Both the position numbers and the translations under genes were made by a program. From Notolepis coatsorum (lineage: Eukaryota > Chordata > Actinopteri > Aulopiformes > Paralepididae): a stretch of DNA of 64,000 nt. The notes under the pieces are model-generated. The model ran no database searches. It was given only the letters and a program-made list of their open reading frames with translations, and was not told where the DNA came from. The stretch is taken from NCBI GenBank assembly GCA_963971535.1, contig OZ020587.1, positions 159,136,595 to 159,200,594 of the forward strand. The letters are read 5' to 3'. Of this stretch, positions 4,295 through 32,998 are shown one piece after another (the stretch's first letter is position 1; each line of letters begins with the position of its first letter).

Positions 4295-4307
4295 TGGTAG
4301 TGTGGTA

Positions 4308-4470
4308 CACTGTAAGAAAAAGAATCGGTAAAAAAACAGTAAATGTCTGGCAGCTTGGCAGCCAGAGATTTACTGTAAAATTATATTGAAATACCAGAAT
4401 TAAAATAAAGTGGAAAAGCAATAAATTTACAGATAATTCTGTTTATTATTTTTGCAGAGAACTACTGTTA
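4308..4470 (+). repeat. Left terminal and subterminal region of the large insertion
   Basis: AT-rich sequence with short direct and inverted repeats (AACAGTAAATG, TTTACTGTAAA, TTTACAGATAATTCTG). Related motifs appear in inverse orientation at 32600-32880. Confidence 0.55.
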
Positions 4471-7400
4471 ATTGACAGGTTAGGTTCAGCAGTGAAACAC
4501 TGTTATTTTACAGGTTTTTTCCTACATTATTATGATCAAACACCTTCAATAAAGTGACAGAACTTAAAGTTCAGCAGTGAAACATTGTTATTTCACAAGT
4601 TTTCCCTACATTTACGATGAAACTCCTTCAATTAAGTGACATAACTCAAAGTTCAGCAGTGAAACACTGTTATTTCACAGGTCTTTCCTAAATTATTACG
4701 ATCAAACTCCTTCAATAAAGTGACAGAACTTAAAGTACAGCAGTGAAACTCTGTTATTTCACAGGTTTTTCCTAAATTATTACGATCAAACTCCTTCAAT
4801 AAAGTGACAGAACTCAAAGTTCAGCAGTGAAACACTGTTATTTCACAGATTTTTCCTAAATTATTACAATCAAACTCCTTCAATAAAGTGACAGAACTTA
4901 AAGTTCAGCAGTGAAACTCTGTTATTTCACAGGTTTTTTCTAAATTATTACGATCAAACTCCTTCAATAAAGTGACAGAACTTAAAGTTCAGCAGTGAAA
5001 CACTGTTATTTCACAGTTTTCTTCTAAATTATTACGATCAAACACCTTCAATAAAGTGACAGAACTTAAAGTTCAGCAGTGAAACACTGTTATTTCACAG
5101 GTTTTTCCTAAATTATTACGATCAAACTCCTTCAATAAAGTGACAGAACTTAAAGTTCAGCAGTGAAACTCTGTTATTTTACAGGTCTTCCCATAATTAT
5201 TACAATCAAACTCCTTCAATAAAGTGACAGAACTTAAAGTTCAGCAGTGAAACACTGTTATTTCACAGGTTTTTCCTAAATTATTACGATCAAACTCCTT
5301 CAATAAAGTGACAGAACTTAAAGTTCAGCAGTGAAACACTGTTATTTCACAGGTTCTTCCTAAATTATTACGATCAAACTCCTTCAATAAAGTGACAGAA
5401 CTTAAAGTTCAGCAGTGAAACACTGTTATTTTACAGGTCTTCCCATAATTATTACAATCAAACTCCTTCAATTAAGTGACATAACTCAAAGTTCAGCAGT
5501 GAAACACTGTTATTTCACAGGTCTTTCCTAAATTATTACGATCAAACTCCTTCAATAAAGTGACAGAACTTAAAGTTCAGCAGTGAAACACTGTTATTTC
5601 ACAGTTTTCTTCTAAATTATTACGATCAAACACCTTCAATAAAGTGACAGAACTTAAAGTTCAGCAGTGAAACACTGTTATTTCACAGGTTTTTCCTAAA
5701 TTATTACGATCAAACTCCTTCAATAAAGTGACAGAACTCAAAGTTCAGCAGTGAAACACTGTTATTTCACAGATTTTTCCTAAATTATTACAATCAAACT
5801 CCTTCAATAAAGTGACAGAACTTAAAGTTCAGCAGTGAAACTCTGTTATTTCACAGGTTTTTTCTAAATTATTACGATCAAACTCCTTCAATAAAGTGAC
5901 AGAACTTAAAGTTCAGCAGTGAAACACTGTTATTTCACAGTTTTCTTCTAAATTATTACGATCAAACACCTTCAATAAAGTGACAGAACTTAAAGTTCAG
6001 CAGTGAAACACTGTTATTTCACAGGTTTTTCCTAAATTATTACGATCAAACTCCTTCAATAAAGTGACAGAACTTAAAGTTCAGCAGTGAAACTCTGTTA
6101 TTTTACAGGTCTTCCCATAATTATTACAATCAAACTCCTTCAATAAAGTGACAGAACTTAAAGTTCAGCAGTGAAACACTGTTATTTCACAGGTTTTTCC
6201 TAAATTATTACGATCAAACTCCTTCAATAAAGTGACAGAACTTAAAGTTCAGCAGTGAAACACTGTTATTTCACAGGTTCTTCCTAAATTATTACGATCA
6301 AACTCCTTCAATAAAGTGACAGAACTTAAAGTTCAGCAGTGAAACACTGTTATTTTACAGGTCTTCCCATAATTATTACAATCAAACTCCTTCAATTAAG
6401 TGACATAACTCAAAGTTCAGCAGTGAAACACTGTTATTTCACAGGTCTTTCCTAAATTATTACGATCAAACTCCTTCAATAAAGTGACAGAACTTAAAGT
6501 TCAGCAGTGAAACACTGTTATTTCACAGTTTTCTTCTAAATTATTACGATCAAACACCTTCAATAAAGTGACAGAACTTAAAGTTCAGCAGTGAAACACT
6601 GTTATTTCACAGGTTTTTCCTAAATTATTACGATCAAACTCCTTCAATAAAGTGACAGAACTTAAAGTTCAGCAGTGAAACTCTGTTATTTTACAGGTCT
6701 TCCCATAATTATTACAATCAAACTCCTTCAATAAAGTGACAGAACTTAAAGTTCAGCAGTGAAACACTGTTATTTCACAGGTTTTTCCTAAATTATTACG
6801 ATCAAACTCCTTCAATAAAGTGACAGAACTTAAAGTTCAGCAGTGAAACACTGTTATTTCACAGGTTCTTCCTAAATTATTACGATCAAACTCCTTCAAT
6901 AAAGTGACAGAACTTAAAGTTCAGCAGTGAAACACTGTTATTTTACAGGTCTTCCCATAATTATTACAATCAAACTCCTTCAATTAAGTGACATAACTCA
7001 AAGTTCAGCAGTGAAACACTGTTATTTCACAGGTCTTTCCTAAATTATTACGATCAAACTCCTTCAATAAAGTGACAGAACTTAAAGTTCAGCAGTGAAA
7101 CACTGTTATTTCACAGGTTCTTCCTAAATTATTACGATCAAACTCCTTCAATAAAGTGACAGAACTTAAAGTTCAGCAGTGAAACACTGTTATTTTACAG
7201 GTCTTCCCATAATTATTACAATCAAACTCCTTCAATTAAGTGACATAACTCAAAGTTCAGCAGTGAAACACTGTTATTTCACAGGTCTTTCCTAAATTAT
7301 TACGATCAAACTCCTTCAATAAAGTGACAGAACTCAAAGTTCAGCAGTGAAACACTGTTGTTTCACAGGTTTTTCCTAAATTATTACAATCAAACTCCTT

Positions 7401-10400
7401 CAATTAAGTGACAGAACTCAAAGTTCAGCAGTGAAACACTGTTATTTCACAGGTTTTCCCTAAATTATTACGATCAAACTCCTTCAATAAAGTGACAGAA
7501 CTTAAAGTTCAGCAGTGAAACTCTGTTATTTCACAGGTTTTTCCTAAATTATTACGATCAAACTCCTTCAATAAAGTGACAGAACTCAAAGTTCAGCACT
7601 GAAACACTGTTGTTTCACAGGTTTTTCCTAAATTATTACAATCAAACTCCTTCAATTAAGTGACAGAACTCAAAGTTCAGCAGTGAAACACTGTTATTTC
7701 ACAGGTTTTTCCTAAATTATTACGATCAAACTCCTTCAATAAAGTGACAGAACTTAAAGTTCAGCAGTGAAACTCTGTTATTTCACAGGTTTTTTCTAAA
7801 TTATTACGATCAAACTCCTTCAATAAAGTGACAGAACTTAAAGTTCAGCAGTGAAACACTGTTATTTCACAGGTTTTTCCTAAATTATTACGATCAAACT
7901 CCTTCAATAAAGTGACAGAACTTAAAGTTCAGCAGTGAAACTCTGTTATTTTACAGGTCTTCCCATAATTATTACAATCAAACTCCTTCAATTAAGTGAC
8001 ATAACTCAAAGTTCAGCAGTGAAACACTGTTATTTGGCCGGTTTTTCCTAAATTATTACAATCAAACTCCTTCAATAAAGTGACAGAACTTAGTTCAGCA
8101 GTGAAACACTGTTATTTCACAGGTTCTTCGTAAATTATTACGATCAAACTCCTTCAATAAAGTGACAGAACTTAAAGTTCAGCAGTGAAACTCTGTTATT
8201 TTACAGGTCTTCCCATAATTATTACAATCAAACTCCTTCAATAAAGTGACAGAACTTAAAGTTCAGCAGTGAAACACTGTTATTTCACAGGTTCTTCCTA
8301 AATTATTACGATCAAACTCCTTCAATAAAGTGACAGAACTTAAAGTTCAGCAGTGAAACACTGTTATTTTACAGGTCTTCCCATAATTATTACAATCAAA
8401 CTCCTTCAATTAAGTGACATAACTCAAAGTTCAGCAGTGAAACACTGTTATTTGGCCGGTTTTTCCAAAATTATTACAATCAAACTCCTTCAATAAAGTC
8501 ACAGAACTTAGTTCAGCAGTGAAACACTGTTATTTTACAGGTTTTTCCTAAATTATTACAATCAAACTCCTTCAATAAAGTGACAGAACTTAAAGTTCAG
8601 CAGTGAAACACTGTTATTTTACAGCTCTTCCCATAATTATTACAATCAAACTCCTTCAATTAAGTGACATAACTCAAAGTTCAGCAGTGAAACACTGTTA
8701 TTTCACAGGTTCTTCCTAAATTATTACGATCAAACTCCTTCAATAAAGTGACAGAACTTAAAGTTCAGCAGTGAAACTCTGTTATTTTACAGGTCTTCCC
8801 ATAATTATTACAATCAAACTCCTTCAATAAAGTGACAGAACTTAAAGTTCAGCAGTGAAACACTGTTATTTCACAGGTTTTTCCTAAATTATTACGATCA
8901 AACTCCTTCAATAAAGTGACAGAACTTAAAGTTCAGCAGTGAAACACTGTTATTTCACAGGTTCTTCCTAAATTATTACGATCAAACTCCTTCAATAAAG
9001 TGACAGAACTTAAAGTTCAGCAGTGAAACACTGTTATTTTACAGGTCTTCCCATAATTATTACAATCAAACTCCTTCAATTAAGTGACATAACTCAAAGT
9101 TCAGCAGTGAAACACTGTTATTTCACAGGTCTTTCCTAAATTATTACGATCAAACTCCTTCAATAAAGTGACAGAACTTAAAGTTCAGCAGTGAAACACT
9201 GTTATTTCACAGTTTTCTTCTAAATTATTACGATCAAACACCTTCAATAAAGTGACAGAACTTAAAGTTCAGCAGTGAAACACTGTTATTTCACAGGTTT
9301 TTCCTAAATTATTACGATCAAACTCCTTCAATAAAGTGACAGAACTTAAAGTTCAGCAGTGAAACTCTGTTATTTTACAGGTCTTCCCATAATTATTACA
9401 ATCAAACTCCTTCAATAAAGTGACAGAACTTAAAGTTCAGCAGTGAAACACTGTTATTTCACAGGTTTTTCCTAAATTATTACGATCAAACTCCTTCAAT
9501 AAAGTGACAGAACTTAAAGTTCAGCAGTGAAACACTGTTATTTCACAGGTTCTTCCTAAATTATTACGATCAAACTCCTTCAATAAAGTGACAGAACTTA
9601 AAGTTCAGCAGTGAAACACTGTTATTTTACAGGTCTTCCCATAATTATTACAATCAAACTCCTTCAATTAAGTGACATAACTCAAAGTTCAGCAGTGAAA
9701 CACTGTTATTTCACAGGTCTTTCCTAAATTATTACGATCAAACTCCTTCAATAAAGTGACAGAACTTAAAGTTCAGCAGTGAAACACTGTTATTTCACAG
9801 GTTCTTCCTAAATTATTACGATCAAACTCCTTCAATAAAGTGACAGAACTTAAAGTTCAGCAGTGAAACACTGTTATTTTACAGGTCTTCCCATAATTAT
9901 TACAATCAAACTCCTTCAATTAAGTGACATAACTCAAAGTTCAGCAGTGAAACACTGTTATTTCACAGGTCTTTCCTAAATTATTACGATCAAACTCCTT
10001 CAATAAAGTGACAGAACTCAAAGTTCAGCAGTGAAACACTGTTGTTTCACAGGTTTTTCCTAAATTATTACAATCAAACTCCTTCAATTAAGTGACAGAA
10101 CTCAAAGTTCAGCAGTGAAACACTGTTATTTCACAGGTTTTCCCTAAATTATTACGATCAAACTCCTTCAATAAAGTGACAGAACTTAAAGTTCAGCAGT
10201 GAAACTCTGTTATTTCACAGGTTTTTCCTAAATTATTACGATCAAACTCCTTCAATAAAGTGACAGAACTCAAAGTTCAGCACTGAAACACTGTTGTTTC
10301 ACAGGTTTTTCCTAAATTATTACAATCAAACTCCTTCAATTAAGTGACAGAACTCAAAGTTCAGCAGTGAAACACTGTTATTTCACAGGTTTTTCCTAAA

Positions 10401-13320
10401 TTATTACGATCAAACTCCTTCAATAAAGTGACAGAACTTAAAGTTCAGCAGTGAAACTCTGTTATTTCACAGGTTTTTTCTAAATTATTACGATCAAACT
10501 CCTTCAATAAAGTGACAGAACTTAAAGTTCAGCAGTGAAACACTGTTATTTCACAGGTTTTTCCTAAATTATTACGATCAAACTCCTTCAATAAAGTGAC
10601 AGAACTTAAAGTTCAGCAGTGAAACACTGTTATTTTACAGCTCTTCCCATAATTATTACAATCAAACTCCTTCAATTAAGTGACATAACTCAAAGTTCAG
10701 CAGTGAAACACTGTTATTTCACAGGTTCTTCCTAAATTATTACGATCAAACTCCTTCAATAAAGTGACAGAACTTAAAGTTCAGCAGTGAAACTCTGTTA
10801 TTTTACAGGTCTTCCCATAATTATTACAATCAAACTCCTTCAATAAAGTGACAGAACTTAAAGTTCAGCAGTGAAACACTGTTATTTCACAGGTTTTTCC
10901 TAAATTATTACGATCAAACTCCTTCAATAAAGTGACAGAACTTAAAGTTCAGCAGTGAAACACTGTTATTTCACATGTTCTTCCTAAATTATTACGATCA
11001 AACTCCTTCAATAAAGTGACAGAACTTAAAGTTCAGCAGTGAAACACTGTTATTTTACAGCTCTTCCCATAATTATTACAATCAAACTCCTTCAATTAAG
11101 TGACATAACTCAAAGTTCAGCAGTGAAACACTGTTATTTGGCCGGTTTTTCCAAAATTATTACAATCAAACTCCTTCAATAAAGTCACAGAACTTAGTTC
11201 AGCAGTGAAACACTGTTATTTTACAGGTTTTTCCTAAATTATTACAATCAAACTCCTTCAATAAAGTGACAGAACTTAAAGTTCAGCAGTGAAACACTGT
11301 TATTTTACAGCTCTTCCCATAATTATTACAATCAAACTCCTTCAATTAAGTGACATAACTCAAAGTTCAGCAGTGAAACTCTGTTATTTTACAGGTCTTC
11401 CCATAATTATTACGATCAAACTCCTTCAATAAAGTGACAGAACTTAAAGTTCAGCAGTGAAACTCTGTTATTTTACAGGTCTTCCCATAATTATTACAAT
11501 CAAACTCCTTCAATAAAGTGACAGAACTTAAAGTTCAGCAGTGAAACACTGTTATTTCACAGGTTTTTCCTAAATTATTACGATCAAACTCCTTCAATAA
11601 AGTGACAGAACTTAAAGTTCAGCAGTGAAACACTGTTATTTCACAGGTTCTTCCTAAATTATTACGATCAAACTCCTTCAATAAAGTGACAGAACTTAAA
11701 GTTCAGCAGTGAAACACTGTTATTTCACAGGTTCTTCCTAAATTATTACGATCAAACTCCTTCAATAAAGTGACAGAACTTAAAGTTCAGCAGTGAAACA
11801 CTGTTATTTTACAGGTCTTCCCATAATTATTACAATCAAACTCCTTCAATTAAGTGACATAACTTAAAGTTCAGCAGTGAAACACTGTTATTTCACAGGT
11901 TCTTCCTAAATTATTACGATCAAACTCCTTCAATAAAGTGACAGAACTTAAAGTTCAGCAGTGAAACACTGTTATTTTACAGGTCTTCCCATAATTATTA
12001 CAATCAAACTCCTTCAATAAAGTGACAGAACTTAAAGTTCAGCAGTGAAACACTGTTATTTTACAGGTCTTCCCATAATTATTACAATCAAACTCCTTCA
12101 ATTAAGTGACATAACTCAAAGTTCAGCAGTGAAACACTGTTATTTCACAGGTCTTTCCTAAATTATTACGATCAAACTCCTTCAATAAAGTGACAGAACT
12201 TAAAGTTCAGCAGTGAAACACTGTTGTTTCACAGGTTTTTCCTAAATTATTACAATCAAACTCCTTCAATTAAGTGACAGAACTCAAAGTTCAGCAGTGA
12301 AACACTGTTATTTCACAGGTTTTTCCTAAATTATTACGATCAAACTCCTTCAATAAAGTGACAGAACTTAAAGTTCAGCAGTGAAACTCTGTTATTTCAC
12401 AGGTTTTTTCTAAATTATTACGATCAAACTCCTTCAATAAAGTGACAGAACTTAAAGTTCAGCAGTGAAACACTGTTATTTCACAGTTTTTTTCTAAATT
12501 ATTACGTTCAAACACCTTCAATAAAGTGACAGAACTTAAAGTTCAGCAGTGAAACATTGTTATTTCACAGGTTTTTCCTAAATTATTACGATCAAACTCC
12601 TTCAATAAAGTGACAGAACTTAAAGTTCAGCAGTGAAACTCTGTTATTTTACAGGTCTTCCCATAATTATTACAATCAAACTCCTTCAATAAAGTGACAG
12701 AACTTAAAGTTCAGCAGTGAAACACTGTTATTTCACAGGTTTTTCCTAAATTATTACGATCAAACTCCTTCAATAAAGTGACAGAACTTAAAGTTCAGCA
12801 GTGAAACACTGTTATTTCACAGGTTCTTCCTAAATTATTACGATCAAACTCCTTCAATAAAGTGACAGAACTTAAAGTTCAGCAGTGAAACACTGTTATT
12901 TTACAGGTCTTCCCATAATTATTACAATCAAACTCCTTCAATTAAGTGACATAACTCAAAGTTCAGCAGTGAAACACTGTTATTTGGCCGGTTTTTCCAA
13001 AATTATTACAATCAAACTCCTTCAATAAAGTGACAGTACTTAGTTCAGCAGTGAAACACTGTTATTTTACAGGTTTTTTCTAAATTATTACAATCAAACT
13101 CCTTCAATAAAGTGACAGAACTTAAAGTTCAGCAGTGAAACACTGTTATTCCACAAGTTTTTCCAAAATTATTACGATCAAACACAGTGAAACACTGTTA
13201 TTTGGCCGGTTTTTCCTAAATTATTACAATCAAACTCCTTCAATAAAGTGACAGAACTTGAAACACTGTTATTTTACAGGTTTTTCCTAACTTATTACAA
13301 TCAAACCCCTTCAATAAAGT
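4471..13320 (+). repeat. 84-bp satellite array, about 105 copies, with higher-order repeats
   Basis: Head-to-tail monomers of 84 bp, each containing GTTCAGCAGTGAAACACTGT and TCAATAAAGTGACAGAACTT. Diagnostic variants recur at fixed spacing. CACAGTTTTCTTCT lies at 5012, 5600, 5936 and 6524, giving an 11-mer repeat of 924 bp. It recurs at 9208, 2684 bp after 6524. The same 2684-bp offset is shown by GTTCAGCACTG (7591, 10275), TTTGGCCGG (about 8453, 11137) and ACAGCTCTTCCC (8622, 11306). 2684 is 32 monomers minus 4 bp, explained by two monomers each lacking 2 bp near 8090 and 8509. There is no coding potential. Monomers degrade toward 13190-13320. Confidence 0.95.
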
Positions 13321-13560
13321 TATGCCACTAAAAACTCAGCAGAGAAACAAACACTTTTATTGTACAGATTGTTAGAAACAAAAAGCTTCAAGTGTTAACA
13401 AGTGTTTATTTTGGAAGCAAGTGTGCTGTATAAAACAGATAAAAATTATTTCAAAATTTAGCTTGCAGTGTTTGTTCAAATGTAATGTTTAAATACAGTA
13501 TGTAAAGTTAAAAACCTATAGAAGTACAATCTAAACACACTATTTATGGATCAATATGCA
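13321..13560. other. AT-rich edge of the satellite array, unassigned
   Basis: Diverged satellite sequence fades into AT-rich DNA. No gene or complete element is seen. Confidence 0.4.
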
Positions 13561-13660
13561 TGGCAGCTGCCACCATTGGTGTGTGAATGTGTGTGAATAG
13601 GTGAATGAGAGGCCATACGCGCTTTGGATAAAAGCGATATTGCTATATATAAGTGCAGTC
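13561..13660 (+). mobile_element. SINE 3' fragment
   Basis: Contains TGTGTGAATGTGTGTGAATA followed by CGCTTTGGATAAAAGCG, a 3' body and tail of a kind I associate with fish tRNA-derived SINEs and L2-type 3' ends. The tRNA-like head is absent. Confidence 0.5.
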
Positions 13661-15609
13661 CATTGAACATAACATAATGGCCAAGTAGTAAATTAAACTT
13701 TATGTCCACAATTCTGAACTATCCCTTCAATGTCATCAGATGATTTCAACTTTTAAAAGCGGAGAAAGCAACATATTGTGCTGTTGAACCGAGGGGGTTG
13801 TGGTCAGGTCTACAGTTTTTTAGCTTTACCATTTCAGTTTTATATTGTTTTCCACAATATTCTCCCGACCACTGGGGGCTCCATAATATGTGTGAACATT
13901 ATACTGTTTAATTCAGAATCCCAACTATACAGTGTATTACTAATTCAAATCAAAACATACCACACCACAAAAGGTCAATGAATCGGTGGCACAAGTGAAG
14001 AGCAGAATCCTCCAGATTGGCAGTAATCAGCTGGATCCTTGGTGCATGGTGCATCTGGGAAAATGAAGAAAAAGGACACTATGATTCACTGGAAAGTCCT
14101 TGAAAAGTAGGATTTAATGGGTTACCATTCCTCAAACTTTATTCAATAGTCTGTACCGACATTTGCCACTATTACACATTTTGGAAAGTACCGTCAGCTT
14201 TGAGAGTGCTAGTTGCATGTTTGTTTAGCAATAAAAACATGCACCTAATGCATGTCCTTGTCAGATAAAATTGAATCACCAAAAGAAAGAAGACGTGGAT
14301 TCACAACACCGGATACCAAGCCACCGGGGCTGTGAAACATTTTGAGCGAGTAGCGAATCCCGGTATTGATCGTCACGTGACACTTTTAGGGGCAAACATA
14401 CCTTTTCCCATAGACATACATGGGTAAAGAAACGGCTGGGGAAATCACTCAGGCGTCGCACAGAGTCCAAAACTACTCTTAACCCTTGTGTCTGAAAACG
14501 AAAGCGTTACTCAATTGTCCTCTTCAAAAACGCAATAGAAATATTATACTATGTTGAAGGTGATAGTGGTGTATTTTTTAGACCCTCTTGCTTTGCTGCT
14601 GGGAGGGGGGCTCCTTCATCTCCTCTCACTACCGCAGGTGAGACACCACTAGGTTGCTCGTGGTACACAGGGCTTCTACCACTAGTGGGACGGAACCATG
14701 GACTAAACTCCTCTGATGCTGCTGCCACTTTCACTTTTGAGGTTAGCTCACAGGAAATTCAATTGAATAGCCTATATTAATATAAATTATATTAATAATG
14801 ATTTGAAGATGTTTACACTTTTTTTTACAACCCTACTGTTCTCCCGAGAATTAAATAAAGGTTTGATGATGATGACATGTGCTCGAAGAGAGATATAGAT
14901 AGAGTGGGTGTGTTTGTACATGCAAGCTATACTCACATCAGCTTAAGGGAGATGCCATCCATGTCAATTCAGCATAGGATGATTCAATGGCCTTGTGGTC
15001 AGCAGGGTCCCCCCTTCTGGCTGCTGGCCTCTGGTAGAGGTGTCGATCACCAGTGGCATCCCTCTGAGAACACAATTAGACTTTAGACGGTGGCTTGCGA
15101 GCACGATGAGCCTAATTTTCTAATTTTGAGATTGCTCTATCTATCCGATCTCATTACAAAATACTTGCCTCCTAGATCACTAAATGCGGGGCTCCTATCG
15201 ATCCCTAGGGTAAAATGCATGCATGGGCTGAGCTCCCAAAGCGCCATGTGACTTGCAATACCAAGCTTGGCCTCTAAGCCCTTGTTGCTTTAACACTGGA
15301 CCATCTGTCACAAAAATTACAGGGGATCTGGGGGAGATAGTGTGAACCTCTGCATGCGTTACGTTCCCCCAGTGAAACTCCTCGCTGTCAGGTGAAAAGA
15401 AGCGGCTGGCGACTCCACATGTACTGTACCCTCCCCAGGCCGACAGTTGGGCAACACGTGCAATGACCAGGAAGGGAATTGGCATAGCAACTAAATTGCA
15501 ATGGGTGAGAAATACAGGAAGCCCAAAAATAAATGGATTTAAAAAGAAATTACCATTGTATATAATTAGAAATAATCTTCTCTAAAGTGTTATTCAGTGG
15601 ACTTCTCCT
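13661..15609. other. Unassigned sequence with weak exon-like frames
   Basis: No firm gene. Three minus-strand open frames (14276-14470, 14549-14734, 15195-15485) are 61-96 codons long and match nothing I know. The last two have ordinary-looking composition and could be decayed exons. The stretch around 14290-14470 resembles dispersed fish repeat sequence. Splice sites linking them were not found. Confidence 0.3.
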
Positions 15610-16199
15610 TTAAAAAGGAACACACCAACTTTGTGGGAAATTTGCTTATTTGCCATCTACCCTGGAGTTAGACAAGCAGATTGATCAGTTAGCCTCATAG
15701 CATAATTGCCTAATTAATTTTTTGGCCAAATTGATATTTCTGCCTAACTCTACTCTCCTCACTGCTGCACCACCCTGGCTTAGTGGCTGTGTCCTCAGCC
15801 AATCAGGACCTTGATAACAAAATTGGCTGTTTAAGGAATTCCAGGCCTTGACTTTTTTATTTAATTTTTTTATCAAGCATTTTAAGCACTTCAAGGACCT
15901 TGTGCGAACCCTGGATATATACTCTGAACAATTTTTTGCCGAACCGCTGCTGCCTGACCGCAGTGATTTCATCACCTCAAAAGCCCAGTTTAAAAAAAAA
16001 TAAAGCGTATTTCGTGACTGTTGGGAACTAGGCTACACTGACACCTACTTCCAGTGAATGACGCTAAGCTAGGCTAACGGCGCGGTTGTTCCCTAAGCCT
16101 AATGCATGTACAGAGAAGAAAAGGGTATGCATCTGCTTGTCCAACTCTAGGTAGATGGCAAATAAGCTAATTTCCCAAAAAGTTGGCGTGTTCCTTTAA
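15610..16199. mobile_element. Complete TTAA-flanked MITE
   Basis: TTAA lies at 15610-15613 and 16196-16199. The inner ends are inverted repeats of about 65 bp: AGGAACACACCAACTTTGTG on the left and AGTTGGCGTGTTCCTT on the right, continuing through the shared motif TTTGCCATCTACC. The element is about 580 bp and has no transposase, so it is non-autonomous. TTAA preference points to a piggyBac- or Kolobok-type mobiliser, which is inference. An inner piece near 15840-15913 resembles a different dispersed repeat ending CCTTGTGCGAACCCTGG, so the element may be composite. Half-copies occur at 3441, 26285 and 46570. Confidence 0.8.
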
Positions 16200-16240
16200 G
16201 CCTCCAAAGAGACCTTTGCTGGAGTGGTCACAGCTAAAAA

Positions 16241-17028: not shown

Positions 17029-17640
17029 CAGGGGTCAGCAACCTTTACTATCAAAAGAGCCACTTTTCACCCCTCCCACAAAATAAAATGCTCAGGGAGC
17101 CGCACAACCTATTTACCCTTAAAATGAAGATAACACAGTGTATAACGTTTTATATATCCCCAAGCATACCCCACATTTAGCATAAAACGTCTGACAATTG
17201 CCCAAAGTCATTTGCGATTTATTATACTTTATACTTATTGGCTATAGCACACAGTTTGTTGCATAATTTTGACTTTTTATTGCTGTTTTTACCTGTTATA
17301 ACAAAGGAAAACCTCAAACTCTTATGAAGAGGAGACAAAATACTGGCTGTGTAGACTTATTTTTAAATAAAACACAGAGGAGGCGACAAAACACTGGTGT
17401 CTATAGACCGACTTTGAAATAAAACCCTGAACTATTCAGGTATATTTGAGTCCTTCCCTTATTTGTGGAACATTTATAAAATAAAAAGTAGTCCACTTTG
17501 AAAAAAGACTACCATGTGTAGACCTACTTTGAAATAAAACACAGAAAAGGAGAAAAAACACTGGCATCTCACAGTGTTTAGAGGGTCTATCACGGTGTTT
17601 AGAGGGTCTATCACAGTGTTTGTAGGGTTTGTAATCACTC
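17029..17640. mobile_element. hAT-like (Charlie-type) fragment, one end
   Basis: Starts CAGGGGTCAGCAACCTTTAC, then has AAAAGAGCCAC and GGGAGCCGCAC, features of vertebrate hAT Charlie-type repeats whose ends read CAGGGGT(C)GGCAACC. The opposite end is not found before the exon at 17679, so this is a truncated copy. It contains two internal near-repeats with TTTGAAATAAAAC. Confidence 0.65.
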
Positions 17641-17678
17641 GTTTAGCATTTCAAATATTTAAATAAATAAAACTTACA

Positions 17679-21602: not shown

Positions 21603-21925
21603 GTTGGCCACACACGCACACAGGTGCGCTGTTCTCAGATGGCACAGGTAAAAAAACACTACGGGTCGAACCCAGCCACATTTCATTTTGCGTGAAAGGC
21701 GAACGCAATTAGGCTTGCTTGAGTCGCTCCGACTTATTTTATTTCTTTATCTAAAAACCAAACTATTCAGTCAGATAGCGATTTATTATGAAAGTATAAA
21801 GTGCAATTACAATTTCAATAACTTTCCAGCACTTTATACACAATTCAAGCACATTTAAAACCTTGAAAACAGCACATTGAAATACAAGCATTTTAAAGGA
21901 TTTCAAATTGCATTGGTCCGGATGG

Positions 21926-22829
21926 GAGAATTCAGTACTGTATCTACAGAACCTTCGGTTTAATCATCTTCCCTTTATTAATTTCCTTAGATTTCTTTTT
22001 ACACATGATCTCAAGAGGGGACTGAACGAGATCAGTGGCAGTTTTTAATGTTTGGTCATTATTAGCATGGTGTTATTCACTGTCAAAGATGCAAAGAAAA
22101 ATCATAATTCATATTCTCCTTTGTTTCATCACAATTTAAGCAAGCCTAGTAATAGACACAATATTTCTGACACTGTGAATACATTCCCTGAGGTCCATAG
22201 ATGTCCCTAGATACCGAGAATATGCAAATAGTCCTTTTGATTTTGATTACAGTATTTTATTGTGAAATAATAATTAAATGATGTGAAATATTGCTGTTAT
22301 TGTGAGATTACAAAATCTGATGTGATATTAGAGAGGATTTTGATTACAGTATTTTATTGTGAAATAATAATTAAATTATGTGAAATCAAAGGATAGTGTA
22401 TGAATGTCACTGTAATATAACACTCATAACAGAATTAGTTATCAATAACCTACCTGTATAAAGGTTAAAAGTTATTGCAAATATTTTTTTCCCTCATAAA
22501 TATACCACTATATACATTCATTTCTTATATTAGTTTTAAAATGACCATTTAACAGTGCTCTGAAAATGCTCTGACAACATCATTCACTGTTTTAAGCACT
22601 AACACATAAGGGAGGTGAAGAATTGTGGTGATTCGTCTGTGATTATAATACGAATTAATGTTGATGGGAGCAAAACAGACACTCTCTGCATGGCAGAGAA
22701 GAGGTGTGACCCCTCTCTCCAGAAAGTGTAACTAGGGCAAGACTGGGAGCAGGTTGCTAGGCGACCCGGTGCCTAGCAGTCATAACAGCATTCCTGAGAT
22801 AAGGATGGAGGAGCAGGAGGATGTGGGGG
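21926..22829. other. Unassigned AT-rich sequence
   Basis: No gene is recognised. A sequence containing TTTTGATTACAGTATTTTAT is repeated about 95 bp apart (near 22237 and 22331). Confidence 0.4.
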
Positions 22830-23230: not shown

Positions 23231-23432
23231 TGCACCCTCCACAAATCATGTTAAACCCAGATTCGGCTCAAACAAGGGACTAAACACGTTTCGCAATTAT
23301 GCCACATCAATGTGGAACGCCCTACCCAAAGCTGTAAAGGAATGTGAATCACTACCCACTTTCAAAAACACTCTCAAAGAACACCTAAGGGAGACTGCAA
23401 TTCGAAACTGGCCCCTGTAAATGTCCTAACAC
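23231..23432 (+). mobile_element. LINE F1 C-terminal coding fragment
   Basis: Encodes the end of the F1 polyprotein (NHVKPRFGSNKGLNTFRN through NWPL and the stop). It is cut on both sides: no endonuclease or reverse transcriptase before it and no 3' UTR beyond the first bases, so it was not left by simple 5' truncation. Confidence 0.9.
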
Positions 23433-23810
23433 AACCCCAGTCTGGCTGGAGACGGAGCTACAAGCTAACATGGAAGCTAACACAATGAATAATTATGCAA
23501 GTTAGCATTCGGATCAGGCTAGTAGGAACAATACAGAATGCTAACAATGCTAACATGCAAATCAACACGCAGGCTGGACTCGATGCAATACAGAATATTC
23601 AGAGGAACATGGAGGCTAATTCAAAAGAAATAAAAACGTTAGACAACAGCGAGGCTGGAGACGAAGCTACAAGCTAACATGGAAGCTAACGGGATGAATA
23701 TGCAAGTTAGCATCAGGCTAGAAGCAATACAGAATGCTAACAACACGCAGACAGGACTCGATGCAATACAGAATATTCAGAGGAGCATGGAGGCTAATTC
23801 AAAGCATATA
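23433..23810 (+). repeat. Two-copy degenerate tandem repeat
   Basis: Two related segments of roughly 150-200 bp share GAGCATGGAGGCTAATTCAAA-like ends and GATGCAATACAGAATATTCA, starting near 23449 and 23653. No protein is recognised. Confidence 0.6.
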
Positions 23811-24026
23811 AGCATAAGCCTTCTGACAACATTTTGAAACGTTACTCATAACATAATACTCATACAACATAATATCAACATTATTGGCAGTACTACCTAC
23901 TTGTTCGATGCAACAGACACACGAGGTGGAACGCAGGAAGAAGCCACACAGGTGCAGTGCAGTCTGGGAGGCGGAGGCGGAGCACAGGTGCAATGCATTC
24001 TGGGTGAACAAGTCTGAACTCACCTT

Positions 24027-24244
24027 TGATTGATTGATTGAAAACTTTATTAACAGATTGCAGAATGGGTACAGTACAGTACAGCTCAATACATACAATT
24101 GTTAAGAGGATGCAGACCAGAGAAAGACTTTCGTCTTGTTTACATCAGGGTCCCCCATTTTCAATTCATCATAACATATATGACATACACGACATACAGA
24201 TAGACAGTACTGCTACATCTATACATTTATGACATACCAGATTT
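24027..24244 (-). mobile_element. LINE F1 3'-end fragment, minus strand
   Basis: Reverse complement of the last 210 bp of LINE F1, beginning with the tail (TGATTGATTGATTG) at the left. At its right edge, in AGATTTATG, it passes straight into the inverted minisatellite. Confidence 0.9.
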
Positions 24245-26228
24245 ATGTCACACGAGTCACACGAGTCTCCAAGTCACACAAGTCTCCAAGTCACACGAGT
24301 CTCCAAGTCACAAGAGTCACACGAGTCTCCAAATCACACAAGTCTCCAAGTCACACGAGTCTCCAAGTCACACAAGTCACACGAGTCTCCAAGTCACACG
24401 AGTCTCCAAGTCACACGAGTCTCCAAGTTACAAGAGTCACACCAGTCTCCAAGTCACACCAGTCTCCAAGTCACACAAGTCTCCAAGTCACACAAGTCTC
24501 CAAGTCACATGAGTCTCCAAGTCACACGAGTCTCCAAGTCACAAGAGTCACACCAGTCTCCAAGTCACACGAGTCTCCAAGTCCAATGAGTCTCCAAGTC
24601 ACACAAGTCTCCAAGTCACACGAGTCTCCAAGTCACACAAGTCACACGAGTCTCCAAGTCACACAAGTCTCCAAGTCACAAGAGTCACACCAGTCTCCAA
24701 GTCACACAAGTCTCCAAGTCACACAAGTCTCCAAGTCACATGAGTCTCCAAGTCGCACAAGTCTCCAAGTCACACAAGTCTCCAAGTCACACAAGTCTCC
24801 AAGTCACACAAGTCTCCAAGTCACACAAGTCTCCAAGTCACACGAGTCTCCAAGTCACAAGAGTCACACGAGTCTCCAAGTCACACGAGTCTCCAAGTCA
24901 CACAAGTCTCCAAGTCACATGAGTCTCCAAGTCACATGAGTCTCCAGGACTCCAAGTCACACGAGTCTCCAAGTCACACAAGTCTCCAAGTCACACAAGT
25001 CACACAAGTCTCCAAGTCACACGAGTCTCCAAGTCACACAAGTCTCCAAGTCACATGAGTCTCCAAGTCACACGAGTCTCCAAGTCACACGAGTCACACG
25101 AGTCTCCAAGTCACACGAGTCTCCAAGTCACACGAGTCATACGAGTGTCATACAAGTCATACGAGATTTACTTGGAGACTCGTGTGACTTGTGTGACTTG
25201 GAGACTTGTGTGACTTGGAGACTCGTGTGACTCTTGTGACTTGGAGACTCGTGTGACTTGGAGACTTGTGTGACTTGGAGACTCGTGTGACTTGTGTGAC
25301 TTGGAGACTCGTGTGACTTGTGTGACTTGGAGACTCGTGTGACTTGTGTGACTTGGAGACTCGTGTGACTTGGAGACTCATGTGACTTGGAGACTTGTGT
25401 GACTTGGAGACTTGTGTGACTTGTGTGACTTGGAGACTCGTGTGACTTGTGTGACTTGGAGACTCATGTGACTTGTGTGACTTGGAGACTCGTGTGACTT
25501 ATGTGACTTGGAGACTCGTGTGACTTGGAGACTCATGTGACTTGGAGAGTTGTGTGACTTGGAGACTTGTGTGACTTGTGTGACTTGGAGACTCGTGTGA
25601 CTTGGAGACTTGTGTGACTTGGAGACTCGTGTGACTTGGAGACTCATGTGACTTGGAGACTTGTGTGACTTGGAGACTCGTGTGACTTGTGTGACTTGGA
25701 GACTCGTGTGACTTGGAGACTCGTGTGACTCTTGTGACTTGGAGACTCGTGTGACTTGGAGACTTGTGTGACTTGGAGACTCGTGACTTGTGTGACTTGG
25801 AGACTCGTGTGACTTGGAGACTTGTGTGACTTGGAGACTCGTGTGACTTGTGTGACTTGGAGACTCGTGTGACTTGTGTGACTTGGAGACTCGTGTGACT
25901 TGGAGACTTGTGTGACTTGGAGACTCGTGTGACTTGTGTGACTTGGAGACTCGTGTGACTTGTGTGACTTGGAGACTTGTGTGACTTGGAGGCTTGTGTG
26001 ACTTGGAGACTCGTGTGACTCTTGTGACTTGGAGACTCGTGTGACTTGGAGACTTGTGTGACTTGGAGACTCGTGTGACTTGGAGACTTGTGTGACTTGG
26101 AGACTCGTGTGACTTTTGTGACTTGGAGACTCGTGTGACTTGGAGACTTGTGTGACTTGGAGACTCGTGTGACTTGGACACTTGTGTGACTTGGAGACTC
26201 GTGTGACCTGTGTGACTGGGAGACGTGG
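24245..26228. repeat. 2-kb inverted minisatellite (head-to-head arrays)
   Basis: From 24245 to about 25160 a unit of about 17 bp (CTCCAAGTCACACGAGT), with shorter 9-10-bp variants, runs on the plus strand. From about 25170 to 26228 the same unit runs on the minus strand (ACTCGTGTGACTTGGAG). The centre is a 20-30-bp unrelated sequence with CATACGAGATTTAC. The arms are about 0.9 and 1.05 kb. Open frames on both arms (24229-24939 plus, 25378-26244 minus) encode the same low-complexity peptide (SHTSLQVT, SKSHKSPS) because 17 is not a multiple of 3 and the unit has no stops; they are not credible genes. Confidence 0.95.
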
Positions 26229-26284
26229 TAAATACACAGGTCACAACATGTTTACAGGAACGTTTGGGAGTTGTATTTTGATTG

Positions 26285-26492
26285 TATATTTCCTGACTGT
26301 AGGCTAGCTAAGCTGCATGTTAGCCTAGCACAATGAATGGAAGCGGCCATGACTGGGTAGCCTTCGGGAGAGGTGTTAGTTGGACAATGCCTAGGCTAAC
26401 CAGTCATGCCCGCTTCCATTCATTGTGCTAAGCTAGGCTATCATTGTGCTAAGACTGAGCCAATTTTCCAAAATGTTGGCGTGTTCTCTTAA
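26285..26492 (-). mobile_element. TTAA-flanked MITE, right half
   Basis: Ends AATGTTGGCGTGTTCTC followed by TTAA at 26489-26492. It contains the MITE core in both orientations (GAATGGAAGCGGCCATGAC and GCTTCCATTCATTGTGC), separated by AGTTGGACAATGCCTAGG. The left terminus is missing. Confidence 0.7.
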
Positions 26493-26746
26493 ACTGTATA
26501 AAGTTAGCTGTATAAAGTTGTCTATAAAACACTTAATATTTCATTAGATGATATGTGTACTTATATAAGCAGATCATTTTCTGCAGAAATGTTGTGCCTC
26601 TAATTTAATGTGTTTCAGATGTACTCACAGTGCTACATGCATTGTATGGGATGCATGACTTTCATGTTCAGTTTTACTGTAAAAGGTAATGTACAATTAG
26701 CAATTCTGTATATTGGGCTAAACCTTTCTGAAGCAGAGACTTAGTT
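26493..26746. other. Unassigned
   Basis: Short unique-looking AT-rich DNA between a MITE and a minisatellite; nothing identified. Confidence 0.4.
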
Positions 26747-27015
26747 AGTAGCTCCCCTGTTAGCCTCTTTAGCTCCCATGTTAGCTCCCCTGTTAGCTCC
26801 CCTGTTAGCTCCCCTGTTAGCCTCTTTAGCTCCCCTGTTAGCTCCCCTGTTAGCCTCTTAAGCTGCGGCTGTTAGCTCCCCTGATAGCTCCCCTGTTAGC
26901 CTCTTTAGCTCCCCTGTTAGCTCCCCTGTTAGCCTCTTTAGCTGCGGCTGTTAGCTCCCCTGTTAGCTCCCCTGTTAGCCTCTTTAGCTCCCCTGTTAGC
27001 TCCCCTGTTAGCCGA
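26747..27015. repeat. Short-unit minisatellite (TTAGCTCCCCTG)
   Basis: About 20 units of 12-15 bp (TTAGCTCCCCTG, with TTAGCCTCTT variants). It abuts a LINE F1 fragment at 27016, and its minus-strand form GGCTAACAGGGGAGCTAAC resembles the adjoining F1 sequence GGCTCAAACAAGGGACTAAA. Confidence 0.85.
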
Positions 27016-27275
27016 ATCTGGGTTTAACATGATTTGTGGAGCTCTGCAGGGTGTTGTGGTCGTGGTATTCACTGACCTTTGGGAAGTATTTTGACATGTA
27101 CACTGGGTACCTTGGTCGTGTAGTGTATCTTGTAGACCAGGCCCATTGCAAGTTGCTGTACTCTGTCGTCTACTAGCCATCCTAGGTTGTAAAAGTGGGC
27201 AGGGGTGAGGTGGGTTCTAGGAGTAAGGTCAAGCAGTAGTCTGACCAGTTTGTTTTGAGATGTTTGTGTAGCAGG
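27016..27275 (-). mobile_element. LINE F1 C-terminal fragment, minus strand
   Basis: Reverse complement of F1 sequence coding for the region before NHVKPRFGS (DNLGWL, MYMSKYFPK), with substitutions and a frame disruption. Both ends are truncated. Confidence 0.85.
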
Positions 27276-27530: not shown

Positions 27531-27955
27531 ACTATGCAGTGAGCTGCTGGTTAAAGGCATTAACCACAGTATTGTTATGTTAGCTACTGAGCTGCGGTTA
27601 AAGGCCTTAACCACAGTATTGTTATGTTAGCTACTGAGCTGCTGGTTAAAGGCCTTAACTACAGTGTTGTTATGTTAGCTACTGAGCTGCTGCAGGCCTT
27701 AACCACAGTATTGTTATGTTAGCTATGAGCTGCCGCGGCGCCTAACTATAGTTAAAGGCCATAACCACAGTATTACATATACTCTTGTTAGCTTTATGAG
27801 GCTACATCAACACGCTCCTATGAGTGCAGCTATGTTAGCTTTATGAGGCTACATCAACACGCTCCTATGAGTGCAGCTATAATGTTAGCTTTATGAGGCT
27901 ACATCAACAGGCTCCTATGAGTGCAGCTAATGTTAGCTTTATGAGGCTCTGCCCC
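27531..27955 (+). repeat. Two adjacent minisatellites (about 55 and 48 bp)
   Basis: 27540-27775 has about four units containing CACAGTATTGTTATGTTAGC. 27785-27950 has about four units containing TTTATGAGGCTACATCAACA. Both units contain GTTAGCT. C-rich repeats follow to about 28015. Confidence 0.85.
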
Positions 27956-28015: not shown

Positions 28016-28150
28016 AAATGTATTCATTTTATTATTATTATTTTATTTGTTGCCATTAAAATAATAGGCAAGCATAGGGCTAAAACATTTTCATAAACAA
28101 TATAATTTTTTGTTATTTGGTTATAATAAGGGCTTTTCTATGCATTTGTC

Positions 28151-28186
<36 letters not shown>

Positions 28187-28430: not shown

Positions 28431-31208
28431 TGATTCCAAACTCTAACCGTAACCAGTTCGATAGAGGGCCTAAGCTTAACCAGTTCGAAACAAGGCGGAC
28501 ATTAATTATTAATAAAATAATACAAATTAATACAAATTTCAATTTATTAATCAATCAAGCGGGGAACATAGGACCCGGGGAACATAGGACCCGGGGAACA
28601 TAGGGATGATCCCCTGCTCCCTACTGCTTCCAGTCCTTGTGCTAAGCTAGGCTAGCTGGTCCCTACTGCTTCCAGCCCTTGTGCTAAGCTAGGCTAGCTG
28701 CTACCTACTGCTTCCAGTCCTTGTGCTAAGCTAGGTAGGCTAGCTGGTCCCTACTGCTTCCAGCCCTTGTGCTAAACTAGGCTAGCTGGTCCCTACTGCT
28801 TCCAGCCCTTGTGCTAAGCTAGGCTAGCTGCTTCCTACTGCTTCCAGTCCTTGTGCTAAGCTAGGTAGGCTAGCTGGTCCCTACTGCTTCCAGCCCTTGT
28901 GCTAAGCTAGGCTAGCTGCTCCCTACTGCTTCCAGTCCTTGTGCTAAGCTATAGGCTAGCTGCTCCCTACTGCTTCCAGTCATTGTGCTAAGCTATAGGC
29001 TAGCTGCTCCCTACTGCTTCCAGTCCGTGTGCTAAGCTAGGTAGGCTAGCTGGTCCCTACTGCTTCCAGCCCTTGTGCTAAGCTAGGCTAGCTGCTCCCT
29101 ACTGCTTCCAGTCCTTGTGCTAAGCTAGGCTAGTTGCTCCCTACTGCTTCCAGTCCTTGTGCTAAGCTAGGCTAGCTGGTCCCTACTGCTTCCAGCCCTT
29201 GTGCTAAGCTAGGCTAGCTGCTCCCTACTGCTTCCAGTCCTTGTGCTAAGCTAGGTAGGTTAGCTGGTCCCTACTGCTTCCAGCCCTTGTGCTAAGCTAT
29301 AGGCTAGCTGCTCCCTACTGCTTCCAGTCCTTTTGCTAAGCTAGGTAGGCTAGCTTGTCCCTACTGCTTCCAGCCCTTGTGCTAAGCTAGGCTAGCTGCT
29401 CCCTACTGCTTCCAGTCCTTGTGCTAAGCTAGGCTAGTTGCTCCCTACTGCGTCCAGTCCGTGTGCTAAGCTAGGTAGGCTAGCTGGTCCCTGATTCCAA
29501 ACTCTAACCGTAACCAGTTCGATAGAGGGCCTAAGCTTAACCAGTTCGAAACAAGGCGGACATTAATTATTAATAAAATAATACAAATTAATACAAATTT
29601 CAATTTATTAATCAATCAAGCGGGGAACATAGGACCCGGGGAACATAGGACCCGGGGAACATAGGGATGATCCCCTGCTCCCTACTGCTTCCAGTCCTTG
29701 TGCTAAGCTAGGCTAGCTGGTCCCTACTGCTTCCAGCCCTTGTGCTAAGCTAGGCTAGCTGCTCCCTACTGCTTCCAGTCCTTGTGCTAAGCTAGGTAGG
29801 CTAGCTGGTCCCTACTGCTTCCAGCCCTTGTGCTAAACTAGGCTAGCTGGTCCCTACTGCTTCCAGCCCTTGTGCTAAGCTAGGCTAGCTGCTCCCTACT
29901 GCTTCCAGTCCTTGTGCTAAGCTATAGGCTAGCTGCTCCCTACTGCTTCCAGTCCGTGTGCTAAGCTAGGTAGGCTAGCTGGTCCCTACTGCTTCCAGCC
30001 CTTGTGCTAAGCTAGGCTAGCTGCTCCCTACTGCTTCCAGTCCTTGTGCTAAGTTAGGCTAGTTGCTCCCTACTGCTTCCAGTCCTTGTGCTAAGCTAGG
30101 CTAGCTGCTCCCTACTGCTTCCAGCCCTTGTGCTAAGCTAGGCTAGCTGCTCCCTACTGCTTCCAGTCCTTGTGCTAAGCTAGGTAGGCTAGCTGGTCCC
30201 TACTGCTTCCAGCCCTTGTGCTAAGCTAGGCTAGCTGCTCCCTACTGCTTCCAGTCCTTGTGCTAAGCTAGGCTAGTTGCTCCCTACTACTTCCAGTCCT
30301 TGTGCTAAGCTAGGCTAGCTGGTCCCTACTGCTTTCAGCCCTCATGCTAAGCTAGGCTAGCTGCTCCCTACTGCTTCCAGCCCTTGTGCTAAGCTAGGCT
30401 AGCTGCTCCCTACTGCTTCCAGTCCTTATGCTAAGCTAGGCTAGCTAGTCCCTACTGCTTCCAGCCCTTGTGCTAAGCTAGGCTAGCTGCTCCCTACTGC
30501 TTCCAGTCCTTGTGCTAAGCTAGGCTAGTTGCTCCCCACTGCTTCCAGTCCTTGTGCTAAGCTAGGCTAGCTGGTCCCTACTGCTTCCAGCCCTTGTGCT
30601 AAGCTAGGCTAGCTGCTCCCTACTGCTTCCAGTCCTTGTGCTAAGCTAGGTAGGCTAGCTGGTCCCTACCGCTTCCAGCCCTTGTGCTAAGCTAGGCTAG
30701 CTGCTCCCTACTGCTTCCAGTCCTTGTGCTAAACTAGGCTAGTTGCTCCCTACTGCTTCCAGTCCTTGTGCTAAGCTAGGCTAGCTGGTCCCTACTGCTT
30801 CCAGCCCTTGTGCTAAGCTAGGCTAGCTGCTCCCTACTGCTTCCAGTCCTTGTGCTAAGCTAGGCTAGTTGCTCCCTACTGCTTCCAGTCCTTGTGCTAA
30901 GCTAGGCTAGCTGGTCCCTACTGCTTCCAGCCCTCATGCTAAGCTAGGCTAGCTGCTCCCTACTGCTTCCAGCCCTTGTGCTAAGCTAGGCTAGCTGCTC
31001 CATACTGCTTCCAGTCCTTGTGCTAAGCTAGGCTGGCTAGCTGGTCCCTACTGCTTCCAGCCCTTGTGCTAAGCTAGGCTAGCTGCTCCCTACTGCTTCC
31101 AGTCCTTGTGCTAAGCTAGGCTAGTTGCTCCCTACTGCTTCCAGTCCTTATGCTAAGCTAGGCTAGCTGGTCCCTACTGCTTCCAGCCCTTGTGCTAAGC
31201 TAGGCTAG
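28431..31208 (+). repeat. 42-bp minisatellite with a 1.06-kb higher-order duplication
   Basis: More than 50 units of 42-46 bp containing CTACTGCTTCCAGTCCTTGT and GCTAAGCTAGGCTAGCT. A non-repetitive block of about 190 bp (starting TGATTCCAAACTCTAACC, ending with three GGGGAACATAGGACCC-type units) occurs at 28431 and again at 29492, followed each time by the array, so a block of 1061 bp was duplicated. The array ends directly against inverted 84-bp satellite at 31209. The unit matches the core of the TTAA-flanked MITE (GCTTCCATTCATTGTGCTAA). Confidence 0.95.
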
Positions 31209-31577
31209 CTAATAATTTAGGAAAAAACGGTCAAATAACAGTGTTTCACTGCTGAACTTTAAGTGCTGTCACTTAATTAAAGGTGTTTCATCTTAAATGT
31301 AGGAAAAACCTGTGAAATAACAGTGTTTCACTGCTGAACTTTAAGTGCTGTCACTTAATTGAAGGAGTTTGATTGTAATAATTATGGGAAAACCTGTACA
31401 ATAACAGTGTTTCACTGCTGAACTTTAAGTGCTGTCACTTAATTGAAGGAGTTTGATTGTAATAATTATGGGAAAACCTGTAAAATAACAGTGTTTCACT
31501 GCTGAACTTTAAGTTCTGTCACTTAATTGAAGGTGTTTCATCGTAAATGTAGGAAAAACCTGTGAAATAACAGTGTT
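31209..31577 (-). repeat. 84-bp satellite, inverted copies (first block)
   Basis: About four diverged monomers of the same satellite as 4471-13320, in the opposite orientation (ACAGTGTTTCACTGCTGAAC). Interrupted at 31578 by a LINE F1 3' end. Confidence 0.95.
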
Positions 31578-31863
31578 TTGATTGATTGATTGATTGAAAA
31601 GTTTATTAACAGATTGCAGAATGGGTACAGTACAGTACAGCTCAATACATACAATTGTTAAGGGGATGCAGACCAGAGAAAGACTTTCGTCTTGTTTACA
31701 TCAGGGTCCCCCATTTTCAATTCATCATAACATATATGACATACATGACATACAGATAGACAGTACTGCTACATCTATACATTTATGACATATCAGATTT
31801 GCAAATACAGTACTGTTTGTGATACAAAAGTGTCCAGCAAAGGAGTGTATATACATTTGGCAT
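31578..31863 (-). mobile_element. LINE F1 3' fragment inserted in inverted satellite
   Basis: Reverse complement of the last 285 bp of F1, starting with the tail (TTGATTGATTGATTG) at the left. The satellite continues on both sides, so it is a later insertion. Confidence 0.9.
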
Positions 31864-32345
31864 AGAAACTGTACATTTCACTGCTGAACTTTAAGTTCTG
31901 TCACTTTATTGAAGGAGTTTGATTGTAATAATTTAGGAAAAAAACTGTCAAATAACAGTGTTTAACTGCTGAACTTTAAGTTCTGTCACTTAATTGAAGG
32001 TGTTTCATCTTAAATGTAGGAAAAACCTGTGAAATAACAGTGTTTCACTGCTGAACTTTGTGTTCTGTCACTTAATTGAAGGGGTTTGATTGTAATAATA
32101 ATGGGAAAACCTGTAAAATAACAGTGTTCCACTGCTGAACTTTAAGTTCTGTCACTTAATTGAAGGTATTTCATCGTAAATGTAGGAAAAACCTGTGAAA
32201 TAACAGTGTTTCACTGCTGAACTTTAAGTTCTGTCACTTTATTGAAGGAGTTTGATCGTAATAATTTAGGAAAAAAACTGTCAAATAACAGTGTTTCACT
32301 GCTGAACTTTAAGTCCTGTCACTTTATTGAAGGTGTTTGATCATA
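31864..32345 (-). repeat. 84-bp satellite, inverted copies (second block)
   Basis: Five to six further inverted and more diverged monomers, ending in the right subterminal region of the large insertion. Confidence 0.95.
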
Positions 32346-32880
32346 GTTTTTTTAAATACTGAAAGTTGCCTTATTTTCACATACAGTAAAATGATGAGTA
32401 TCTTATGTGTTTTTACATACAATTCAATGTAATTTAACATTCAACACAATTAAGCAAATACATGTATTTAACAAGAATTACCTGTAGAATAACTGAAGGT
32501 TTTTACTGTTTTTTAATTATATTATTTTCTTTTTTAACATTATTTAACATTACATTTAAAGTTTAACAGCAAAAAAACAGAAAGTTGCCTTATTTTCACA
32601 TACAGTAAAATGATGTATATTCTAGGTGTTTTACATGTAATTTAACATTCAAGACAATTAAGCAATGGAATAATCCTGTAAAAAAAAGATAATTTCTTAT
32701 TAAATCAATTTACAGATTACAACCTTTATTTAATGGTTAATATTTGTATTAAATGTTATCTACTGTATTTTTATGGCATTTACTGTATTTTTATGGCATT
32801 TACACTTAAAGTAGAAAAACAAAAGTAATCTGTAAAATAATACATTGAAAGTCCCGTAAAAATAATTATTTTTAAGAGTG
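32346..32880 (-). repeat. Right subterminal region of the large insertion
   Basis: AT-rich, with an internal direct repeat of about 190-bp spacing (CTGAAAGTTGCC/CAGAAAGTTGCC, then TTATTTTCACATACAGTAAA at both places) and two tandem TACTGTATTTTTATGGCATT units. Read inward from 32880 it starts CACTCTTAAAAATAATTA. Confidence 0.6.
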
Positions 32881-32998
32881 TAGTGAAAAGGGTTAAAAGG
32901 CAAATGTGACTTCTGCGAGAGGAATATCCGACTATGTGTTGAATCCTTCATTAGCTGATCTACATGCCTCCGGTGGCCAGACGGCTTGGAATGTGAGA
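32881..32998 (+). other. End of the 30-bp minisatellite unit and short unique DNA
   Basis: TAGTGAAAAGGGTTAA at 32881-32896 is the missing half of the unit left at 4295-4307. About 100 bp of unassigned DNA follows. Confidence 0.7.

Follow-up and report, generated by a model that had tools for sequence, protein, structure and literature searches.

A 64,000-nucleotide stretch of the Notolepis coatsorum genome (GenBank assembly GCA_963971535.1, contig OZ020587.1, positions 159,136,595 to 159,200,594 of the forward strand; hereafter the window) contains a block of satellite DNA, minisatellites and gene-like sequence with matching borders, which raises the question of whether 28.6 kb of DNA came to this site in a single step. 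Cut-and-paste elements are usually a few kilobases long, and longer ones usually move poorly. An initial annotation had treated 4306..32882 as one CACTA-like insertion. Insertion as a unit, with CACTA-like traits, is supported; the borders move inward by 2 bp, as the block is the element plus both copies of a flanking TA, and true CACTA membership is unproven because the ends do not read CACTA and no transposase has been tied to them. With a probability of roughly 85%, positions 4308-32880 (28,573 bp) are one copy of a giant family of terminal-inverted-repeat DNA transposons, inserted as a unit with duplication of a 2-bp target. The family is giant, CACTA-like, and apparently non-autonomous, has probably been moved in trans, and has spread recently, with copies of up to about 64 kb.

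The element is bounded in the window by the following features.

4306..4307, no strand: left copy of the TA target-site duplication, matching the dinucleotide at the right border
4308..4483, plus strand: left end, beginning CACTGTAAGAA, with an internal hairpin (an internal inverted match); its 32-mer recurs genome-wide
4484..13349, plus strand: left subterminal 84-bp satellite array, with 103.7 copies over 4484-13183
31214..32342, minus strand: 84-bp satellite of the right subterminal region, opposite in orientation to the left array, in two arms (31214-31578 and 31876-32342)
32343..32880, minus strand: right end, CACTCTTAAAAA... when read inward, which recurs genome-wide, as does its exact 32-mer
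32881..32882, no strand: right copy of the TA target-site duplication, matching the left-border TA

The left terminus, CACTGTAAGAAAAAG, has its first base at 4308; the right terminus, CACTCTTAAAAATAA when read inward, has its last base at 32880, and 10 of the first 14 bases are identical between the two. The left begins CACTG and the right CACTC, and hence the CACT previously reported at both ends is present and constitutes their common part, just as the reported doubling of TA is found at 4306-4307 and 32881-32882.

The 3.42-Gb assembly containing the window was searched for both ends. The left-end 32-mer occurs at 56 places when up to 3 mismatches are allowed, and the right-end 32-mer occurs exactly at 261; reversed controls gave none in either case. 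Over their greater length the ends are also well conserved: the left end (175 bp) shows 95-100% identity in the best 40 of 548 first-look candidates, and the right end (540 bp) 98-100% in the best 40 of 1086. The initial annotation had proposed this search as a check and had regarded ends that never occur together elsewhere as the sign of a wrong reading; both termini recur, and seven loci, the window included, carry the two ends facing each other at a spacing of 28.6 to about 64 kb. Right-end positions were listed for the first 100 of the 261 places and are complete on contigs C1, C6, C7, and C8 up to 49.5 Mb. These contigs carry 18 left ends, of which four have an exact right-end 32-mer within 70 kb in the proper orientation and none has one in the improper orientation; in 20,000 random placements, four pairs were never reached, the maximum being three.

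The seven two-ended loci differ in length and, in one case, in the duplicated dinucleotide.

Window copy: 28.6 kb, TA on both sides
C30 copy: 31.5 kb, CA on both sides
C23 copy: 32.7 kb, TA on both sides
C8 copy: 51 kb, TA on both sides
C1 copy: 62.9 kb, TA on both sides
C7 copy: 64 kb, TA on both sides
C7:199.70 Mb locus: 29 kb, no matching duplication

Matching 2-bp duplications are therefore present at six of the seven loci (five TA/TA and one CA/CA), a length that falls within the 2-3 bp target duplication of CACTA elements. Two clusters of ends were also seen. At C23:100986901-100996259, seven left ends lie in one orientation at a spacing of about 1.3-1.8 kb, as if units of left end plus satellite had been tandemly amplified; at C35:79961230-79964809, two right ends with a common orientation are separated by 3 kb and, over the bases compared, share their outer flank, which suggests a local tandem duplication.

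The ends share more than their termini. Twenty left-end copies, out of 39 non-window left-end rows, were fetched as 10-kb stretches, and in all 20 the 84-bp satellite follows the left end on its inner side; it likewise lies inward of the right end at all eight right-end loci considered (window included; two of them neighbours). Because the satellite is found inward of both kinds of end throughout, it is inverted between them, and the earlier claim of one satellite near both ends in opposite orientation extends from the window to these copies; repeated subterminal motifs at both ends are also a mark of CACTA elements. Further inward, part of 13397-14187 occurs in 16 of the 20 fetched copies (in 15 within the fetched 10 kb, in one further in). 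In the 64-kb copy, 4.6 kb of interior was read and comprises about 22 satellite units followed by the element core up to 14221, so that its left anatomy is as in the window.

If such elements insert as units, the site before insertion should be recognisable once the flanks are rejoined. Joining the window flanks with one TA gives 25 bases that align, with a single gap of 1 base, to the intact 30-bp minisatellite (score 43, compared with 22 for the left flank and 21 for the right flank singly), and excision thus restores a minisatellite unit over that length, much as had been proposed. Random joins taken from the repeat-rich window itself scored at least 43 in 12, 11, and 20 of 20,000 trials under three null models (top scores 62, 62, and 66, respectively); because such joins reach the observed score, the empty site of the window, taken alone, is suggestive, not decisive.

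The 64-kb copy provides a clearer case. A whole-genome search with its joined flanks (158 bp) returned 641 first-look candidates, the best 40 of which were scored to give 49 match rows. All 49 listed rows cross the junction, and 37 of them span 154-156 of the 158 query bases at 93-99% identity, the others being shorter or weaker; some of these 37 empty places are neighbours in short tandem arrays and hence are not all independent loci. Three were compared base by base and agree exactly at the junction, with the nearest difference, in one of them, 11 bases away. Because the joined flanks match empty counterparts exactly at the junction, the 64-kb unit went into a pre-existing repeat, with duplication of TA. 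A precise empty counterpart of a whole copy is thus available for the 64-kb copy (37 listed matches) and, in the form of the minisatellite, for the window. For the 51- and 62.9-kb copies, too, the rejoined flanks match single repeats that span the junction, at about 70-85% identity, which is weaker than the 64-kb case; the repeats concerned also lie inside other element copies (for example, 13579-13640 and 16020-16083), and the join matching 16020-16083 has just about 12 bases to the left of the junction. For the C30 and C23 copies, no empty site was found among the loci compared.

These results bear on what else could have produced the block. Segmental duplication, or recombination between minisatellites or satellites, might mimic an insertion at a locus so full of tandem repeats, and random joins within the window do reach its junction score; the 37 listed empty counterparts of the 64-kb copy contradict this explanation, and 2-bp duplications beside CACT ends at six of seven two-ended loci also speak against it, rendering it extremely improbable. 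A transposon of a TA-target superfamily such as Tc1/mariner, in place of a CACTA-like one, would account for the TA that stands before 14 of 19 readable left ends (the twentieth being masked by N). However, the target of Tc1/mariner is always TA, whereas TG precedes three and CA two of these 19 ends and CA lies on both sides of the C30 copy; moreover, Tc1/mariner elements do not usually have CACT ends or inverted subterminal satellite arrays, and this assignment is very unlikely. The label "CACTA-like" rests on three traits: CACT ends, a duplicated dinucleotide that may be other than TA, and inverted subterminal repeats.

Macrotransposition—in which the outer left end of one element and the outer right end of a nearby second element move together with the host DNA between them—is favoured by the wide range of copy sizes (28.6 to 64 kb) and by interiors that differ, the C30 copy having little in common with the window and several nested insertions being present. 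Against this, the same interior (parts of 13397-18475, with an exon of the gene described below) recurs in many copies at 87-99% identity, and its orientation relative to the right end is constant at 24 of the 25 places with a listed right end, unlike a one-off composite. Macrotransposition is thus an unlikely source of these copies, although the family may conceivably go back to one such event. The preferred reading is therefore that of one transposon family whose copies each inserted as a unit.

Between its satellites, the window copy has the following interior features.

13397..17604, minus strand: interior common to other copies, at 87-99% identity where matched
17678..17995, minus strand: predicted exon 3, in which the frame ends at a TGA just before a GTAAGT donor; an acceptor at 18015 is also possible
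18476..19787, no strand: nested transposon-like insertion of 1.3 kb with ends GGGCTGGGCGATATGG...CCATATCGCCCAGCCC, absent from the C44 copy
20456..21058, minus strand: predicted exon 2, with a 54-bp minisatellite (20549-20983) that is much shorter in the C44 copy
21440..21602, minus strand: predicted exon 1, with an ATG start, a zinc-finger-like C..C..H motif and a GTGAGC donor
21900..22615, no strand: high-copy dispersed repeat (2785 first-look candidates, best 40 scored)
23237..27267, no strand: fragments resembling a long interspersed nuclear element (LINE), at about 23237-24245 and about 26996-27267, surrounding a palindromic pair of 17-bp satellites (24247-26224)
26749..27012 and 27540..27948: further internal minisatellites, from the tandem-repeat listing
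28614..31210, no strand: 42-bp minisatellite, which adjoins the right-end satellite in the C30 copy too

The block thus carries a satellite array and several minisatellites, as the initial annotation had stated. Segments 17597-18112 and 19790-20450 each occur at about 40 scored genome places. Where the window has the nested insertion, the C44 copy has 67 other bases, bounded by its positions 3433 (aligned to 19788) and 3501 (aligned to 18475). A LINE-like 3′ end at about 31578-31876 splits the right satellite; the same sequence (31578-31877) is also found in the window at 40648-40898, 45483-45782, and 60337-60586. Long pentanucleotide arrays of the AATCT / CTAAT type occupy 35813-37109, 40993-41294, 41622-41970, and 43010-43599 of the window.

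The gene lies on the minus strand and is modelled from splice-consistent exons; their borders and phases, assigned by hand, fit a single reading frame. Its three-exon structure is a prediction, because the alternative exon 3 acceptor at 18015 is possible; splice-consistent exons agree with the multi-exon gene claimed previously, a putative gene of uncertain identity and integrity. The open reading frame of exon 1 in the window matched no Pfam family at E≤0.1, the C44 version reached zf-met at an E value of 0.48, below the cut-off, and no credible NCBIfam family was found for the exons scanned. Exon 3 encodes a stretch that has no known relatives; compared with the PDB, it yielded only scattered hits of low significance (best E 0.0059), which are not believed, and a possible likeness to a fish SAM-domain-like protein family is given no weight.

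Exon 3 occurs at 40 genome places, including the window. A same-orientation right end lies 11.5-63 kb away at 24 of these, one has a right end in the other orientation, and 15 have none in the partial list. Fourteen aligned copies scarcely differ except for deletions, which vary in size; groups at 89-97% exon identity were considered as old subfamilies and rejected as such, the alignment revealing near-identical copies with different internal deletions. The C44 copy has five extra bases in exon 3 relative to the other 13, which places the sequence downstream in a different frame, and in L022 a gene exon is split by an insertion of about 360 bp (about 8050-8410). A 52-bp deletion in exon 3 is common to four fetched copies (L058-L061) located at several sites, and because each of these carriers has a same-orientation right end (11.5-23.5 kb away), elements were apparently copied after losing this stretch.

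Several observations weigh against the reading of a CACTA-like family inserted as units. Neither terminus begins CACTA. An exact right-end partner within 70 kb was found for just 4 of the 18 left ends, and the two-ended loci are not all intact: the C1 copy has a 2-bp deletion in its right end, the C8 copy has the last base of its right end changed, and at the C7:199.70 Mb locus the left end is damaged and the borders do not match. The C30 copy has in common with the window only the ends, the arrays, and the interior 13397-14835, the gene being absent, and only a small part of the interior was read in the 51-, 62.9-, and 64-kb copies. There is no sign of purifying selection on the gene, with 7 of 296 columns variable in the exon and 6 of 198 in flanking sequence.

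The search for a transposase points the same way. None was found in the element in a limited Pfam search covering 8 of 63 listed open reading frames and seven further peptides (three each from the C44 copy and a gene on C6, and one window exon read by hand). The eight reading frames gave chance-level matches only (TcdB_N, 0.044; Phage_Coat_A, 0.086), and among the seven peptides PF02992 was matched by the C6 gene only. Two transposase families, PF02992 and PF06869, were searched genome-wide. PF02992 (TNP2, the CACTA transposase) has one listed match, at C6:153135334 (E 3.2e-18; best 150 of 253 candidates scored); PF06869 has none in the genome, but the search controls were silent too, and hence this carries little weight. 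At the DNA level, the C6 gene is represented by one complete locus, three partial ones, and two matches of 33 bases. All four loci are more than 100 kb from any listed left end, and for the two on C6 the same is true of listed right ends. The C6 gene (C6:153132300-153138300, L062) is split over frames. At most, it is a candidate for supplying transposase in trans. Many of the open reading frames of at least 90 aa in the fetched loci, judged by eye, look like nested retroelements.

As to how such elements might move, a transposase supplied in trans would cut and paste the element, recognising the short CACT ends. It would probably also recognise the subterminal 84-bp repeats, in the way that TnpA recognises the subterminal repeats of plant CACTA elements. 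As extra binding sites, analogous to those of TnpA and of Galileo, the satellite arrays may help bring together ends that lie tens of kilobases apart, and the zinc-finger-like gene may be the relic of a DNA-binding helper. Elements have probably grown through satellite expansion and nested insertion; the window copy holds both the 18476-19787 insertion and the LINE-like piece that splits its right satellite. A bolder proposal is that the giant lineage uses its arrays as end-pairing handles bound by its own zinc-finger protein, which would let 30-64 kb elements and their cargo genes move as easily as small ones and seed the 84-bp satellite through the 3.4-Gb genome; this is doubtful.

Among known systems, plant CACTA elements have inverted subterminal repeats, a likeness to the element described here, in which such repeats have instead expanded to satellite arrays, with about 104 units in the left one. 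CACT at the ends is held in common with CACTA (En/Spm) elements, including the animal TRC group and SmTRC1, and for SmTRC1 2-bp direct repeats are reported in 7 of 14 copies, a further likeness (PMC1636069). The present family differs in its length (28.6-64 kb), in its CACTG/CACTC ends where TRC ends are said to begin CCC, and in having no TNP2 transposase found inside (PMC1636069). In the red alga Chondrus crispus, enlarged En/Spm elements of 16-20 kb with 4-5 open reading frames are outlined (PMC6431247); these are also CACTA-type, unusually large, and endowed with extra gene content, whereas the element here is larger and has one recognised predicted gene. In the Drosophila foldback transposons Tetris and Galileo, the tandem repeats of the terminal regions are able to seed satellite DNA, Galileo has additional transposase sites, and no autonomous copies of Tetris were found (PMC4079207). 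The present family likewise has tandem repeats in its terminal regions and, like Tetris, has yielded no autonomous copy; in contrast, Tetris duplications are 8-10 bp as opposed to 2 bp, and the element here has a gene-bearing interior.

Very large or gene-carrying DNA transposons have also been described in animals. Teratorn, summarised in PMC6431247, is a very large piggyBac-herpesvirus fusion in teleosts; in the few open reading frames scanned here, no viral family scored above the cut-off. Animal Pack-TIR elements carry genes and are mostly single-copy (PMC8277862), unlike this multi-copy family with members tens of kilobases long. No description of such a giant family was found in the open-access literature searched, although a named Repbase/Dfam consensus may exist.

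Insertions of 28.6-64 kb are flanked by 2-bp duplications, and one insertion has empty counterparts only a few bases different from its joined flanks; very large CACTA-like elements have therefore undergone recent spread, taking gene-like cargo and satellite DNA through a 3.4-Gb genome whose repeats look fish-like. The family thereby makes two matters testable, namely the pairing of distant ends via subterminal arrays and the manner in which satellites disperse.

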